Shown here: positions 2,360 through 27,639 of the stretch, piece after piece
How the letters are laid out: the number at the start of each line of letters is the position of its first letter
Numbering within the stretch: the first letter of the stretch is position 1
NCBI GenBank assembly: GCA_035549195.1
Contig: DASZRK010000023.1
Span: 1-64,000, forward strand
Length of the DNA: 64,000 nt
Source: a bacterium
GTDB taxonomy: Bacteria > Oederibacteriota > Muellerivitia > Muellerivitales > Muellerivitaceae
Reading direction: 5' to 3'
Notes under the pieces: model-generated
Told to the model about the DNA's origin: nothing
Seen by the model: the letters and a program-made list of their open reading frames with translations, nothing else
Database searches by the model: none
Made by a program: the position numbers and the translations under genes

Positions 2360-2932
2360 ATGACCAAGGGGCGTTTGGAAGCCTTCAGCGACGGGGTCTT
2401 CGCCATCCTCATCACCATCATGGTGTTGGAGCTCAAGACACCCCAAGGCGCTTCCTGGGAGGCGCTCTCCAACCTTTGGCCCCTTCTTTTGACCTACCTC
2501 CTGAGCTTCGTCTTCCTGGGTGTTTATTGGAGCAATCACCACCATCTTTTCCACGCCGTCCAGAAGGTGAACGGGGCGGTCCTTTGGGCCAATCTGCACC
2601 TGCTCTTCTGGCTTTCCCTGGTCCCTTTCGTGATGGCCTGGGTGGGGAACCACGGATTGGAGACCTGGCCGGTGGCCTTCTATGGATTCGTCCAGTTCAT
2701 GGCCGGGTTGGGTTATTTCATCCTGGTCCAGGCCCTCCTGCGGCATCACGGCCGGAATTCGGCCTTGTCCCGGGCCTTAGGGTCCGATCTCAAGGGGAAG
2801 TTCTCGGTGGTCGTTTATTTTGCCGCCATACCCCTGGCCTTTTATTTTCCCGTGGCCTCCTATGTCCTCTTCTTCCTCGTGCTCGCGGTCTGGCTGGTGC
2901 CGGACCGTCGTTTCGAGCGTTTGACCGCATGA
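2360..2932 (+). CDS. TMEM175 (DUF1211) family membrane protein, probable potassium channel
   Basis: 190 residues of mostly hydrophobic sequence. The N-terminus carries the family signature R-x-x-x-F-S-D-G-V-F-A-I-x-I-T (residues 5-20), followed by V-L-E. In characterised TMEM175 proteins the F-S-D segment lines the K+ pore. Further helices cover roughly residues 38-60, 75-95, 102-125 and 145-175, close to the six helices of one repeat. Bacterial members have a single six-helix unit and work as tetramers, which fits this length. The ATG is preceded by a GGAGAG ribosome site. The gene stands alone between a stalk-protein gene and a glycosyltransferase gene, so context adds little. The family call is firm; ion selectivity is inferred from family knowledge. 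Confidence 0.85.
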   Translation: MTKGRLEAFSDGVFAILITIMVLELKTPQGASWEALSNLWPLLLTYLLSFVFLGVYWSNHHHLFHAVQKVNGAVLWANLHLLFWLSLVPFVMAWVGNHGLETWPVAFYGFVQFMAGLGYFILVQALLRHHGRNSALSRALGSDLKGKFSVVVYFAAIPLAFYFPVASYVLFFLVLAVWLVPDRRFERLTA

Positions 2933-2958
2933 CCGAAACCCGGTTCTTTAGGTAAGAT
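2929..2958 (+). promoter_or_regulatory. Candidate promoter giving a leaderless transcript of the glycosyltransferase gene
   Basis: ATGACC (2929-2934) and TAAGAT (2953-2958) are 18 bases apart. The -10 hexamer ends 6 bases before the ATG at 2965, so transcription would start at or next to the A of the start codon. No Shine-Dalgarno is visible in front of that ATG. Confidence 0.35.
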
Positions 2959-2964
2959 AGCGTC

Positions 2965-3738
2965 ATGCCCAACACCCGCACCCACCTGGTCATCGGCACC
3001 CCTTGCTATGGGGGCCTGGTCTCCAGCGGTTTCACCACATCCCTCATGCGCCTCCAAGCGGCCTGTGCCCATCGGGGGGACATCGACCTGAGCGTGAACC
3101 TTCTCTCGGGGGATGCCCTCATTCCCCGGGCCCGGCAGAACATCGTGGCCCATTTCCTGAACAACCCGTCGGCGACCCATCTGCTTTTCGTGGACGCGGA
3201 CATCACCTTCGGGCCCGAGCAGGCCCTGCGGTTATTGGACTTCGACGCGCCCTTGGCCGCCGGGGTCTATCCCACCAAACGGGTGGATTGGCCCAAGGTC
3301 ATTTCCTTGGCCAAGGCGGGCATGACCCATTTGGAATCCACGGCCCTTTCCTATGTATTGGAATTGGAGGACCCATCCAAGATCGTCCCCAAGAACGGTT
3401 TCGCGAAGGTCCGCTATGCCGGGACAGGGTTCATGATGATCCAGCGGGAGACGCTCCTCAAAATGATAGAGGCCTATCCGGCCCTTCGCTATAAGCGTGA
3501 GAACCAGGCCGAGGACCCCTTGAGGGACAGCCCCTATCGGTCGGCCCTTTTCAATGGCATGATCGACGAGGCGACCGGCGTTTACCTGAGCGAGGACTAT
3601 AGTTTCTGCCGCCGTTGGACGGACTTGGGCGGGGAGATCTGGGCGGACCTCCAGAGCCGTTTGGACCACGTGGGCACCATGATCTTCCGGGGGGACATGG
3701 CGAGCCAATTCATGGTCCGCTCCGAGGCCAAATCCTGA
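2965..3738 (+). CDS. GT-A fold glycosyltransferase-like protein
   Basis: 257 residues. The start T-P-C-Y-G-G-x-V-S (12-20), the segment D-A-L-I-P-R-A-R-Q-N-I (50-60) and the D-x-D-like F-V-D-A-D-I (75-80) are typical of a soluble family-2-like group that often acts on surface or phage-related glycans. The D-A-D would bind the metal and nucleotide sugar. Y-A-G-T-G-F-M-M-I and S-E-D-Y-S-F-C-R-R (near 205) match the acceptor and catalytic regions of GT2 enzymes. No signal peptide or membrane helix is visible, so it acts in the cytoplasm. Donor and acceptor are unknown. There is no ribosome site before the ATG; a -10-like hexamer sits 6 bases upstream. Confidence 0.75.
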   Translation: MPNTRTHLVIGTPCYGGLVSSGFTTSLMRLQAACAHRGDIDLSVNLLSGDALIPRARQNIVAHFLNNPSATHLLFVDADITFGPEQALRLLDFDAPLAAGVYPTKRVDWPKVISLAKAGMTHLESTALSYVLELEDPSKIVPKNGFAKVRYAGTGFMMIQRETLLKMIEAYPALRYKRENQAEDPLRDSPYRSALFNGMIDEATGVYLSEDYSFCRRWTDLGGEIWADLQSRLDHVGTMIFRGDMASQFMVRSEAKS

Positions 3739-17593: not shown

Positions 17594-18061
17594 ATGCTGA
17601 AGACCTTGTTGCTTGCCGCCAGCCTTGCCATTCCTGCTGCCGCCGTCCTGGCCGATGACGCGCCCGCGTCGACCCCGGCCCCCACGACCGTCGCCAAGAC
17701 GAAAACCGTCAAGTCCGCCAAGGTCGTCACCACCGCCGATGGCTTGAAATACCAGATCCTCAAGACGGGCAAGGGGAAGGCCGCCAAGGCCGGCCACCGG
17801 GTCTCCGTCCACTATACGGGTTGGCTCACGGACGGCACCAAGTTCGATAGTTCGGTGGACCGGGGCCAGCCTTTCCAGTTCAACCTCGGCGCCGGCCAGG
17901 TCATCCGGGGCTGGGATGAGGGTGTGGAGGGCATGAAGATCGGCGAGAAGCGTAAGCTGACCATCCCTTCCTCCTTGGGCTATGGAGAACGGGGAGCGGG
18001 CGGCGTCATCCCACCCAACGCGACCCTGATCTTCGATGTGGAACTCCTGGGCGTCGAGTAG
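17594..18061 (+). CDS. FKBP-type peptidyl-prolyl isomerase, exported
   Basis: 155 residues. The signal peptide is about 1-20 ([17 protein letters not shown]). A linker leads to one FKBP domain at about 48-155, with [22 protein letters not shown] and the closing loop G-Y-G ... I-P-P-N-A-T-L-I-F. The tyrosine, Asp, Trp and Ile that line the proline pocket are all present. It speeds cis-trans prolyl isomerisation, here probably of exported proteins in the periplasm, a plausible job in a cell with very Pro-rich stalk proteins. It lies 9 bases before a close paralogue. Confidence 0.92.
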
Positions 18062-18070
18062 GGCGGCCCC

Positions 18071-18535
18071 ATGGAAACGCGTTTCGTTATCGGCGTCCTT
18101 GTCATCATGCTGGCCGCCGGAGCCCTTTATTGGGTTCGTTCGAAGCGGGGGGGCTTTCCTCCGTCCGGCCCCTTGGAGGTCCCGGCTTCTGCTTCCACCA
18201 TCACCACCGCTTCCGGGCTCCGCTATCTGGTCCTCCAGGAAGGAACGGGAGAAGGGGTCCCGGCGGGCAAGAAGGTCACCGTCCATTACACCGGTTGGCT
18301 GACCAACGGCACCAAGTTCGACAGTTCCCTGGACCGGGGACGTCCCTTCGAATTCACCTTGGGGGTCGGCCAGGTCATCAAGGGATGGGACGAGGGCGTC
18401 CAGGGCATGAAAGTGGGCGAAAAGCGGAAGCTCCTCATCCCCTCGGCGCTGGGTTATGGTCCCCGGGGCGCGGGGGGCGTGATCCCTCCCAACGCCGACC
18501 TGGTCTTCGAGGTCACCTTGCTGGGTTATCAATAA
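18071..18535 (+). CDS. FKBP-type peptidyl-prolyl isomerase, membrane-anchored paralogue
   Basis: 154 residues. An N-terminal hydrophobic helix (about 5-20, [16 protein letters not shown]) is followed by basic residues R-S-K-R, which suggests a membrane anchor rather than a cleaved signal. One FKBP domain occupies about 45-154. Most of it is identical to the preceding protein ([25 protein letters not shown]). The pair arose by tandem duplication. The two differ in anchoring, so they may serve soluble and membrane-bound clients. Confidence 0.9.
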
Positions 18536-24923: not shown

Positions 24924-24951
24924 TTGACGGTGGGGAAAACAAGTAGATAAT
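24924..24951 (+). promoter_or_regulatory. Promoter of the dcw cluster
   Basis: TTGACG (24924-24929) and GATAAT (24946-24951) are separated by 16 bases. The -10 overlaps the first base of the TGGGT box at 24951, so a protein bound to the box array would cover the start site. The leader before mraZ would be about 110 bases. Confidence 0.7.
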
Positions 24952-24985
24952 GGGTCAAAGTGGTAAACAGTGGGATAAAGTGGTT
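24931..24985 (+). promoter_or_regulatory. MraZ operator: TGGKN boxes at 10-base spacing
   Basis: TGGGG (24931), TGGGT (24951), TGGTA (24961), TGGGA (24971) and TGGTT (24981) all start at exact multiples of 10 bases. Only the position at 24941 is missing. Spacers in the 24951-24985 run are 5 bases. MraZ of enterobacteria binds TGGGN direct repeats with 5-base spacers upstream of its own gene, and this layout agrees with that. Autoregulation of the whole cluster is inferred. Confidence 0.82.
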
Positions 24986-25071
24986 TTTAACAGAAACCCT
25001 TATATTCCCGCATAAAAATGACATTTTGGACCCGCCCTTCAAGGCGGTTGGTTCTTTGGAAAGTGGGAAGC

Positions 25072-25530
25072 ATGTTCCGCGGGATCTTTCACAACACCCT
25101 CGACGACAAAGGCCGCCTGAGCATCCCGGCCCGCTTCCGGGAGCAGCTTAAGAACGACCACGAATCGCCCCTGGTGCTGACCTTGGGGTTCGACCAATGC
25201 CTGTTCCTTTATCCGATGGATGTATGGAAGAAGATCGAGGAGAAGCTCTCTTCGCTGGACACCTTGAACGCGGACGTGAGGCAGTTCCAACGCACGGTGC
25301 TCAAGGCCACCGATGAGGTGGAGGTGGACCCGCAGGGGCGCATCACCATCTCGCCGGTCCTCCGCAAGGAGGCGGGGCTCGCGAAGGCCGTGGTCATCGC
25401 GGGGATGCTGAACCGCATCGAGATCTGGGACAAGGCGCGGCATGAAGGGTATCACGCCCAGACCTCCCAGTCGCTGGAGATGCTGGGGCAGAAGCTTTCG
25501 GACAAGGGAATTCAATCCTTGAACCTTTGA
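25072..25530 (+). CDS. mraZ: MraZ, transcriptional regulator of the dcw cluster
   Basis: 152 residues from the ATG at 25072; the longer in-frame extension encodes nothing MraZ-like. It has the two AbrB-like half-repeats: L-D-D-K-G-R-L-S-I-P (about 9-18) and V-D-P-Q-G-R-I-T-I-S (near 85-94), each with the D-x-x-x-R core that makes the swapped hairpin barrel. MraZ rings bind arrays of TGGGN boxes in front of their own gene and repress the operon. A matching array lies 90-140 bases upstream. It is the first gene of the cluster, as in most bacteria. Confidence 0.96.
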   Translation: MFRGIFHNTLDDKGRLSIPARFREQLKNDHESPLVLTLGFDQCLFLYPMDVWKKIEEKLSSLDTLNADVRQFQRTVLKATDEVEVDPQGRITISPVLRKEAGLAKAVVIAGMLNRIEIWDKARHEGYHAQTSQSLEMLGQKLSDKGIQSLNL

Positions 25531-25543
25531 CCGGGGTGGGGAA

Positions 25544-25897
25544 ATGAACATCGGGATCGAGGTCCGTGAGCATTTTTCGCTGGTCCATGTCGATGGGGAC
25601 CTGACGAGCGAGGATTTTGAAAGGCTGGGGACGGCCATCGATCGTTTGATCAACAAGGGTTACCGGCATGTGGTCCTGGAGATGACCGGCGTCGCCGAAA
25701 TGGACGCCAAGGGGGTGGGGACCCTCGTCAATCACTGGAACCATGTGCGCTTCAAGAGGGGGGATCTCCGCATCGTCGGCCTGAACGGCCGGTTGGCGCA
25801 CCTGTTCCGCGCCATGGGTGTGGATGGGTTGTTCGGCAAGGCGAGGACCTTGGCCGAACTCCTGGAACAAAAAGCTTCGACCGCCGTTTCGGCGTAG
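25544..25897 (+). CDS. STAS-domain protein A (anti-anti-sigma-like)
   Basis: 117 residues, a single STAS domain with the usual strand-helix order: V-H-V-D-G-D-L, V-V-L-E-M-T-G-V, L-R-I-V-G-L-N-G-R-L-A-H-L-F and G-L-F-G-K. In SpoIIAA the phosphorylated serine lies in M-D-S-S-G. Here the same place reads M-D-A-K-G-V-G, so the serine is Ala. It cannot be switched by the classical kinase mechanism. GGGGTGGGG precedes the ATG, 13 bases after mraZ. Its place between mraZ and rsmH suggests a role in division or envelope control. No partner kinase is in the window. Confidence 0.85.
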   Translation: MNIGIEVREHFSLVHVDGDLTSEDFERLGTAIDRLINKGYRHVVLEMTGVAEMDAKGVGTLVNHWNHVRFKRGDLRIVGLNGRLAHLFRAMGVDGLFGKARTLAELLEQKASTAVSA

Positions 25898-25913
25898 GGA
25901 AAGGGAGGGGACC

Positions 25914-26249
25914 GTGGCCGTTTCAACGCAGACCGACACCGTGACCGTGCTGCGCCTTTCGGGCGACCTGGGCCTTTCCGACATGGAGGACCTGGTCCGC
26001 GTCCTCAACAGCCTGGTCCTGGAGAACAAGTGCCGGGTGGTCCTCAATTTCCGGCGCGTGCGCCACGTTTCCCTGAGCGCCATCGCGCTCCTGGCGGACC
26101 GCAACCGCCGCTTCCGCGACCTGGGCGGCGACATCAAATTGACCTCCTTGATCCCCTATGTGGCCAATCTCTTCAAGTTGGTCGGGGCCTTCAGCGTCTT
26201 CGACATCGTGACGGACGAGGACGAAGCCGCGGCCCGTTTTGAAAGCTGA
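25914..26249 (+). CDS. STAS-domain protein B (anti-anti-sigma-like)
   Basis: 111 residues from a GTG preceded by AAGGGAGGGG. It is a STAS fold: T-V-L-R-L-S-G-D-L-G-L, R-V-V-L-N-F-R-R-V, D-I-K-L-T-S-L-I-P-Y-V-A-N-L-F-K and F-D-I-V. At the D-S-S-G position it has S-L-S-A, losing the Asp, the phospho-serine (now Leu) and the Gly. It is a distant paralogue of the preceding protein. It ends with an acidic tail D-E-D-E-A-A-A-R-F. The stop overlaps the start of rsmH by 11 bases, so the three are translated together. Confidence 0.85.
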   Translation: MAVSTQTDTVTVLRLSGDLGLSDMEDLVRVLNSLVLENKCRVVLNFRRVRHVSLSAIALLADRNRRFRDLGGDIKLTSLIPYVANLFKLVGAFSVFDIVTDEDEAAARFES

Positions 26250-27201
26250 CGTTCCCCACGTTCCTGTCCTTTTGAGGGAAGCCGTGGAGTGGTTGTCGCC
26301 CCCGCCCGACGGGGTGGTGCTGGACATGACGGTCGGGATGGGCGGCCACTCGAGCGAGCTCTTGAAGCTCCTGCCGAAGGGCCGTTTGGTCGGGTTGGAC
26401 CAGGACGCCGATGCCTTACAACACGCTGGCCGAGCACTCAGGAAAGACCCTCGGGTCTCCCTGTTCAAGGCTAACTTCGCCGACGTCCTGTGGGTGCTGA
26501 AGGATCTCTCGATCAGCGAGGTCGACAGCGTGTTGATGGATATTGGCGTATCCTCCCTTCAATTGGACACCCCCGAGCGGGGTTTCTCCTTCGGACATGA
26601 CGGTCCTTTGGACATGCGCATGGACCAGCACGCGGGACACACCGCGGCCTGGGTCGTCAACACCTATTCCGAACAAGAGCTGACCAAGATCATCTTTGAA
26701 TTTGGCGAGGAGGCCAAAGCGAGGGCCCTGGCCCGCGCCATCGTGGCCGACCGGGTCCAAAAACCCTTCGAGACCACGGGCCAACTCGCGGCCCTGGCGC
26801 AGCGCATTGTCCCTTCCGGCAAGAAGCCCGGCGAAAAGCACCCGGCGACCCGTCTTTTCCAAGCCCTTCGCATCGAAGTGAACCGTGAACTGGAAGTCCT
26901 CCAAAAAGGTCTGAAAAGCGCCCTTTCGGCGCTCAAGCCCGGGGGCCGTCTGGCCGTCATTACCTTCCATTCCCTGGAGGACCGCATCGTCAAGCATTTC
27001 ATGCAGGACGAGGCCGTCGATTGCCTCTGTCCCCGGGACCTTCCCCAATGCGCGTGCGGCCATAAGGCTTCCTTGAAGATCCTCACCCGAAAACCCGTCA
27101 CGGCTTCCGAATCCGAACTGGAACAGAACCCACGGGCCCGCAGCGCCAAGTTGCGCGTGGCCGAAAAACTACCTCCTGCCGCCGTTCCCTCGAAGGCATA
27201 G
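26239..27201 (+). CDS. rsmH: 16S rRNA (cytosine(1402)-N4)-methyltransferase RsmH
   Basis: 320 residues, normal for MraW/RsmH. N-terminal H-V-P-V-L-L-R-E-A-V is followed by the SAM-binding loop D-M-T-V-G-M-G-G-H-S, the family motif D-I-G-V-S-S-L-Q-L-D, R-G-F-S-F and P-L-D-M-R-M-D, and the late S-L-E-D-R-I-V-K-H-F. A C-terminal C-P-R-D-L-P-Q-C-A-C cluster is present. It methylates N4 of C1402 in the decoding centre. The start is TTG, inside the end of the STAS B gene; no ATG candidate keeps the H-V-P-V-L motif. Confidence 0.96.
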   Translation: MKADVPHVPVLLREAVEWLSPPPDGVVLDMTVGMGGHSSELLKLLPKGRLVGLDQDADALQHAGRALRKDPRVSLFKANFADVLWVLKDLSISEVDSVLMDIGVSSLQLDTPERGFSFGHDGPLDMRMDQHAGHTAAWVVNTYSEQELTKIIFEFGEEAKARALARAIVADRVQKPFETTGQLAALAQRIVPSGKKPGEKHPATRLFQALRIEVNRELEVLQKGLKSALSALKPGGRLAVITFHSLEDRIVKHFMQDEAVDCLCPRDLPQCACGHKASLKILTRKPVTASESELEQNPRARSAKLRVAEKLPPAAVPSKA

Positions 27202-27207
27202 GCCGGC

Positions 27208-27639
27208 ATGGAAAGCGTCGAAACATTGAATGTCGGGATGCGGAAGGCCGGGGAGATCCTGGACGCCGGTCTCTTCTGGCGGGGCAACCTGGCCAAGGCG
27301 GTCAAACGCCGGGATTTTCGGGGGACGGTCTGGGGGATCGGGGGCTTGAGCCTTTTCCTGTTCCTCTATGTCTGGCTCCACATGCAGGTGGTGAAGCTCA
27401 GTTACGAGGTCCAGGGCCTGCGGCAGCAGAAGCAACAGCTGACGAACGAATACTACTACCTGAAGTACCGGATGCATGACGTGAACAGCCTTTCCCGCAC
27501 CGAGCAGGTGGCGCGGGAAAAACTCGGGATGGTGACGCCCCGCTCCGACCAGATCGTGATCCTGGAGGAGGACGGCGAGGGGGCCCCGGGCTGGCTCGCC
27601 TTTTGGGACCGCTGGATGAAACGCTGGAACGGCAAGTGA
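27208..27639 (+). CDS. ftsL: FtsL-like cell division protein
   Basis: 143 residues. Topology is FtsL: a basic cytoplasmic N-terminus (about 1-42, K-R-R-D-F-R-G), one membrane helix (about 43-60, I-G-G-L-S-L-F-L-F-L-Y-V-W-L), then a coiled coil (about 62-95, V-Q-G-L-R-Q-Q-K-Q-Q-L-T-N-E) and the A-R-E-K-L-G-M-V-T-P motif common to FtsL/DivIC proteins. It links FtsQ and FtsW-FtsI in the divisome. FtsL is poorly conserved, so the call rests on topology, motif and position between rsmH and ftsI. Confidence 0.85.
   Translation: MESVETLNVGMRKAGEILDAGLFWRGNLAKAVKRRDFRGTVWGIGGLSLFLFLYVWLHMQVVKLSYEVQGLRQQKQQLTNEYYYLKYRMHDVNSLSRTEQVAREKLGMVTPRSDQIVILEEDGEGAPGWLAFWDRWMKRWNGK

Follow-up and report, generated by a model that had tools for sequence, protein, structure and literature searches.

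Few gene clusters of bacteria are as stable as the dcw cluster. What, then, are two tandem genes for STAS-domain proteins doing between mraZ and rsmH in the 64,000-nt stretch of DNA analysed here (the window)? A domain-profile search of the window gave the order mraZ - STAS1 - STAS2 - rsmH - ftsL - ftsI, and ftsA and ftsZ were recognised by eye farther downstream in the same cluster. The features at the head of the cluster are listed below, with start codons as predicted.

24951..24985, + strand: candidate MraZ box array, TGGGT-N5-TGGTA-N5-TGGGA-N5-TGGTT, with a 10-nt period (motif scan; MraZ binding putative)
25072..25530, + strand: mraZ, with its ATG at 25072 (PF02381 119.6 bits and TIGR00242 144.7 bits, above cut-off)
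25544..25897, + strand: STAS1, 117 aa, motif D-A-K-G (Ser58 replaced by Ala), the family-specific second copy (PF01740 57.5 bits)
25914..26249, + strand: STAS2, 111 aa, GTG start, motif S-L-S-A (Ser58 replaced by Leu), the phylum-conserved copy (PF01740 44.2 bits)
26239..27201, + strand: rsmH (mraW), with a TTG start at 26239 (PF01795 386.9 bits, TIGR00006 366.1 bits)
27208..27639, + strand: ftsL, the next gene of the operon (PF04999 26.9 bits)

The start of rsmH lies inside STAS2, giving an 11-nt overlap that is found at the same length in most relatives of the family. The view of the first-pass annotation that the STAS pair belongs to the dcw operon is supported. For mraZ, an alternative in-frame ATG is possible at 25018. 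The array upstream of it is the sole run in the window of at least four TGG at a 10-nt period, the layout of the known MraZ box; a four-TGG run arose in none of 2000 dinucleotide-shuffled versions of that region, and four-TGG arrays also precede mraZ in other members of the family. At 17594-18535 the window contains two tandem genes for FKBP-type peptidyl-prolyl isomerases followed by a phosphofructokinase gene, as judged by eye from the translations.

Both intervening genes encode STAS-domain proteins. Each passes the curated PF01740 cut-off of 22.6 bits, and AlphaFold2 predicts a complete STAS fold for both (mean pLDDT 87.7 for STAS1 and 84.0 for STAS2). Among solved structures, the best Foldseek matches are 1th8_B for STAS1 (E 1.5e-8) and 1thn_B for STAS2 (E 7.1e-10), both of them SpoIIAA in complex with SpoIIAB. 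Coordinates, profile scores and predicted folds all agree on two STAS reading frames between mraZ and rsmH, as initially annotated. With narrower models, the two proteins score just under the cut-off of TIGR00377, which describes anti-sigma factor antagonists (51.9 and 47.1 bits; cut-off 53.45), and far under that of TIGR02886, which describes SpoIIAA equivalogs (33.7 and 38.2 bits; cut-off 114.75). Neither matches the MlaB model at E<=0.001, and their genomic context is the dcw cluster, not an Mla operon.

We introduce the name dcw-STAS for STAS genes that lie between mraZ and rsmH, encode a residue other than Ser or Thr at the position of SpoIIAA Ser58, and form one group; both genes of the window have all three properties. 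The solved structure 4hyl was considered as a dcw-STAS and ruled out, as it retains an S-S-A-G motif. In most dcw-STAS loci the STAS reading frame runs up to or into the start of rsmH.

Alignment to solved SpoIIAA sequences, including the D-A-S-G variant in 1tid, places the switch residue one after the Asp, and with a large alignment these sequences identify the Ser58 equivalent as Ala in STAS1 and Leu in STAS2. Ser58 switching had been proposed to be lost in both proteins. This holds, and it is general to dcw-located STAS rather than to STAS overall: 118/120 dcw-located sequences have no Ser or Thr at this position, compared with 2/102 STAS encoded elsewhere. The comparison (p ~1e-58) overstates the case because the sequences are related, and its non-dcw set, in which 100/102 have Ser or Thr at position 58, consists of best-scoring matches and loci that happened to be retrieved rather than a random sample. 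Tyr is the commonest dcw-STAS residue at position 58 (65 of 120), followed by Leu (11), Val (10), Ala (10) and others; the two exceptions, at loci L052 and L281, have Ser. Many dcw-STAS have a Ser or Thr one residue past position 58, and they may be phosphorylated there or at another site.

Position 58 is also the column most diverged between the dcw and non-dcw classes. Next is 67 (Arg), then 96 and 86 (Tyr), so that Tyr at 86 is within the top four; Glu at 66 is within the top seven. Positions 66-67 belong to the helix next after the switch loop, which suggests that the partner-binding face of dcw-STAS may have been re-specified. The dcw-STAS apparently form a STAS lineage outside phosphorylation control altogether.

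Some individual STAS genes outside dcw clusters deserve mention. On contig C50 of the window's own genome (locus L072, around 2882), a STAS gene with the motif D-A-T-V and no phospho-Ser lies beside genes for an RsbW-like kinase and a SpoIIE phosphatase; it is one of only two phospho-Ser-less cases outside dcw. The non-dcw STAS nearest to dcw-STAS in the grouping (L113 and L121) keep the Ser (I-N-S-T-A), and by eye an apparent prepilin peptidase gene is located downstream of them.

The closest named RsmH relatives of the window (79-80% identity) include two MAGs of candidate division FCPU426, both with the order mraZ-STAS-STAS-rsmH, and the window accordingly comes from a bacterium of this division; this search by RsmH returned only the window's family and distant controls. 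The analysis covered 45 genomes of the phylum, in 39 of which rsmH and its upstream region are readable. A STAS gene lies between mraZ and rsmH in 32/39 of these, representing 12 of 15 families. In the other three families (f2, f4 and f12) mraZ adjoins rsmH, and thus STAS is not required for the mraZ-rsmH module.

The tandem pair is restricted to the window's family, and nearly all other lineages have one copy. Within that family, one genome (G004) has STAS2 alone, preceded by ~375 nt free of any STAS gene, and the contig of another (G005) begins just before STAS2. Because the pair is limited to one family, and G004 has only STAS2, we regard STAS2 as the conserved gene and STAS1 as the addition. 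The closest relatives of STAS2 in A1/A2 are dcw-located STAS. In the tree STAS1 forms a long branch among dcw-STAS, which fits a duplication, and it was probably added by this means in the window's family. The first-pass annotation had proposed a search of relatives for the same insertion, and this recovers it phylum-wide, mostly in single copy. Absence of the pair from related clusters, which it had named as counter-evidence, is found outside the window's family for the tandem form, but the single-copy form is widespread. The STAS1-less stretch of G004 (L018, 780-1172) holds repeated GATGAACGCAGATGAACGCCGAT-like stretches. A contig titled Proteobacteria bacterium (L074, JAJPJW010000184.1) contains an FCPU426-type STAS pair and matches the locus of G006, an apparent mislabel.

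We also searched 386 genomes by profile and read the gene neighbourhood of the best matches; many of the genomes used in this analysis are MAG-like assemblies. The order mraZ-STAS-rsmH was found in G045; in G050, G059 and G060; in G071, G217 and G354; in G322 and G186; and in G075, G176, G312, G255 and G178. The phylum of G322 has a match in 62/68 genomes, and all 62 best matches lie beside rsmH; second matches are present only in G469 and G483, where they are encoded elsewhere in the genome and keep the Ser. The arrangement occurs in 3/3 genomes of the phylum of G071, in 10/10 of that of G176, in 3/4 of that of G050 (the fourth contig is cut) and in the single genome of that of G045. As G075, G255 and G178 fall outside the phyla searched whole, at least seven phyla carry dcw-STAS. 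None of the 18 control loci with both mraZ and rsmH (Firmicutes, Bacteroidota, Desulfovibrio and others) has a STAS gene between them. Two loci differ in other ways: in an Omnitrophota MAG (L085, ~2718-3010) a non-STAS reading frame of ~90 aa with a Cys pair lies between mraZ and rsmH, and in G057 (L043) rsmH has no upstream mraZ and is preceded by an apparent RNase P RNA gene and a tRNA gene, recognised by eye.

In a tree computed with the switch columns removed, the dcw label changes 3 times, compared with 35.8 in shuffles, and a topology with dcw-STAS as one clade is not rejected and has the higher likelihood (p-AU 0.95). As dcw-STAS group even when the motif is not part of the data, the loss of Ser58 was probably a single event followed by long retention rather than many independent ones. 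For pairs of other family members in which dS is unsaturated, dN/dS is ~0.07-0.15 in STAS1 and in most cases 0.1-0.25 in STAS2; it is higher (~0.14-0.45) in pairs that include the window's own copies. Purifying selection acts on both genes of the window. With dN/dS well below 1, recurrence across the phylum and 18/18 control loci free of STAS, the insertion is not a product of chance. Divergence of STAS follows that of RsmH with a Spearman coefficient of 0.47 overall, and co-divergence was set aside as a sign of contact because among distant pairs the coefficient is 0.17, compared with 0.55 for MraZ and RsmH.

Several known systems resemble dcw-STAS in part. SpoIIAA/RsbV proteins share their length, STAS fold and sequence kinship (profile E 4e-17 to SpoIIAA; Foldseek E 7e-10), but dcw-STAS reside in the dcw cluster, lack the Ser or Thr at position 58 and have no adjoining kinase or sigma gene. 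An adjoining cognate HATPase_c_2 kinase gene, which characterises the SpoIIAA/RsbV switch proteins, was not found beside the dcw-STAS pair of the window. The Ser58-to-Ala variant of SpoIIAA (1tid/1til) has the same D-A change as STAS1; in dcw-STAS, however, this is the natural state family-wide, with Tyr, Leu, Val or Ala. Stressosome STAS proteins are phosphorylated. Those of the RsbS/RsbR type share the fold, and RsbS is a good structural match to STAS2 (TM 0.87), but the sequence match is weak (E 0.04-0.15) and dcw-STAS have no adjoining partner kinase. MlaB, of Mla lipid transport, is likewise a stand-alone STAS protein that is not an anti-anti-sigma factor; it differs in its operon and in its weak sequence match (E 0.49).

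Two loci of the window's genome, on C59 and C50, clearly encode RsbW-like kinases, and both include a STAS gene of their own and a gene for a SpoIIE-type phosphatase; the contig of the window has no HATPase_c_2 kinase at E<=0.001. RsbW-like kinases occur in 33/45 genomes of the phylum. No PF13581 (HATPase_c_2) kinase was found at E<=1e-8 in G001, G007 or G042, all of which have dcw-STAS; G001 is 99% complete and keeps the STAS pair. At that threshold, these genomes speak against a canonical kinase as the partner of dcw-STAS. A partner kinase or anti-sigma factor with a working phosphosite had been named as a finding that would refute the proposal; the kinases on C59 and C50 adjoin STAS genes of their own, and the pair in G001 persists with no such kinase at E<=1e-8.

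Our preferred reading, held tentatively, is that dcw-STAS are permanently active binding proteins of the MraZ-RsmH end of the cluster, with MraZ and/or RsmH as the putative partner. In the ancestral state STAS2 alone would have stood between mraZ and rsmH, with translational coupling to rsmH and regulation through the MraZ box. STAS1 would have joined it in the window's family, making the tandem pair a lineage-specific form of the widespread dcw-STAS. The SpoIIAA fold is retained, but phosphorylation at the canonical position is no longer possible, and binding would therefore most likely be permanently active. It may proceed through the face that in SpoIIAA contacts the kinase/anti-sigma factor, with a partner most likely drawn from the same operon (MraZ and/or RsmH). 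That STAS acts at the MraZ-RsmH end is suggested by its strict position between mraZ and rsmH, its coupling to rsmH and the MraZ-box control; there it may tune MraZ repression against an opposing activity of RsmH. MraZ represses the cluster, and MraW (RsmH) is antagonistic to MraZ in E. coli according to PMC8475190, which refers to Eraso et al. 2014. No Rosetta-stone fusions of STAS with MraZ or RsmH were found; this, the three families without STAS, the weak co-divergence among distant pairs, the Ser of L052 and L281 and the frequent Ser or Thr one residue past position 58 count against the reading.

Two alternatives assign other partners. The proteins could serve as a septal or polar scaffold, binding FtsL, FtsI, FtsA or FtsZ to mark or stabilise the division site, with STAS1 and STAS2 as a heterodimer in the window's family. 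The operon shared with divisome genes and a missing switch fit this role, but the gene lies strictly at the mraZ/rsmH end and not beside the divisome genes, and a single copy is enough in most lineages; we consider it unlikely. The first-pass annotation had suggested a fixed heterodimer, and this cannot be the general mechanism, because most lineages are single-copy: the pair is seen in no family but that of the window, and even there G004 has STAS2 alone. A constitutive anti-anti-sigma factor is a rather more doubtful proposition. Like the Ser58-to-Ala SpoIIAA, it would hold a remote RsbW-type anti-sigma kinase and leave a sigma factor free in dividing cells. The same fold, the best matches to SpoIIAA/RsbV and the RsbW-like kinases of the window genome and the phylum agree with it; the presence of dcw-STAS in G001, G007 and G042, where no such kinase was found at E<=1e-8, the bulky Tyr that prevails at position 58 across phyla, and the attachment of the window genome's kinases to other STAS genes argue against it.

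STAS domains bind ligands or transporter components in other contexts. A MlaB- or SulP-like role, with a nucleotide, a lipid or an ABC ATPase such as FtsE as the partner, would accord with this and with the MlaB model being weakly matched by 2/41 family members, but the match to MlaB itself is poor and we noted no transporter gene among the dcw genes of the window; we think this role improbable. Least credible of all is a neutral passenger that entered the operon once and was merely inherited. A single clade, conservation below that of RsmH and absence from three families of the phylum are what such a gene might show, but it is hard to reconcile with purifying selection, with retention always at the same spot in nearly all genomes of a second phylum, and with near-absolute loss of Ser58 while the fold is retained.

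The literature search found no paper in which the STAS domain appears together with mraZ and dcw or together with mraW, in a coverage that mostly excludes subscription journals, and the remark that such genes have no described role accordingly stands within that coverage. The one paper combining 'anti-sigma factor antagonist' with mraZ is, by its title and abstract, a Yersinia proteome list and was discarded. A published reconstruction makes the dcw cluster an ancient set of at most 17 genes, shaped mainly by loss and likely without gain (PMC8871954). The clusters examined here have the same operon and order otherwise, but dcw-STAS is an extra gene between mraZ and rsmH. This would be an eighteenth gene, always in the same place across several whole phyla, with nearly all copies devoid of the phospho-switch residue. 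It is possible, at somewhat less than our confidence in the binding role as such, that dcw-STAS is an ancient core part of the cluster in at least seven phyla, kinase-free, which directly binds MraZ or RsmH and balances dcw transcription against RsmH activity. A supposedly closed, ancient cluster would then have an unrecognised member, both in the soil bacterium of the window and in whole other phyla. There is little explanation of why the cluster starts with mraZ and rsmH, or of how their products counteract one another, and the protein encoded between them may offer a direct handle on both questions.
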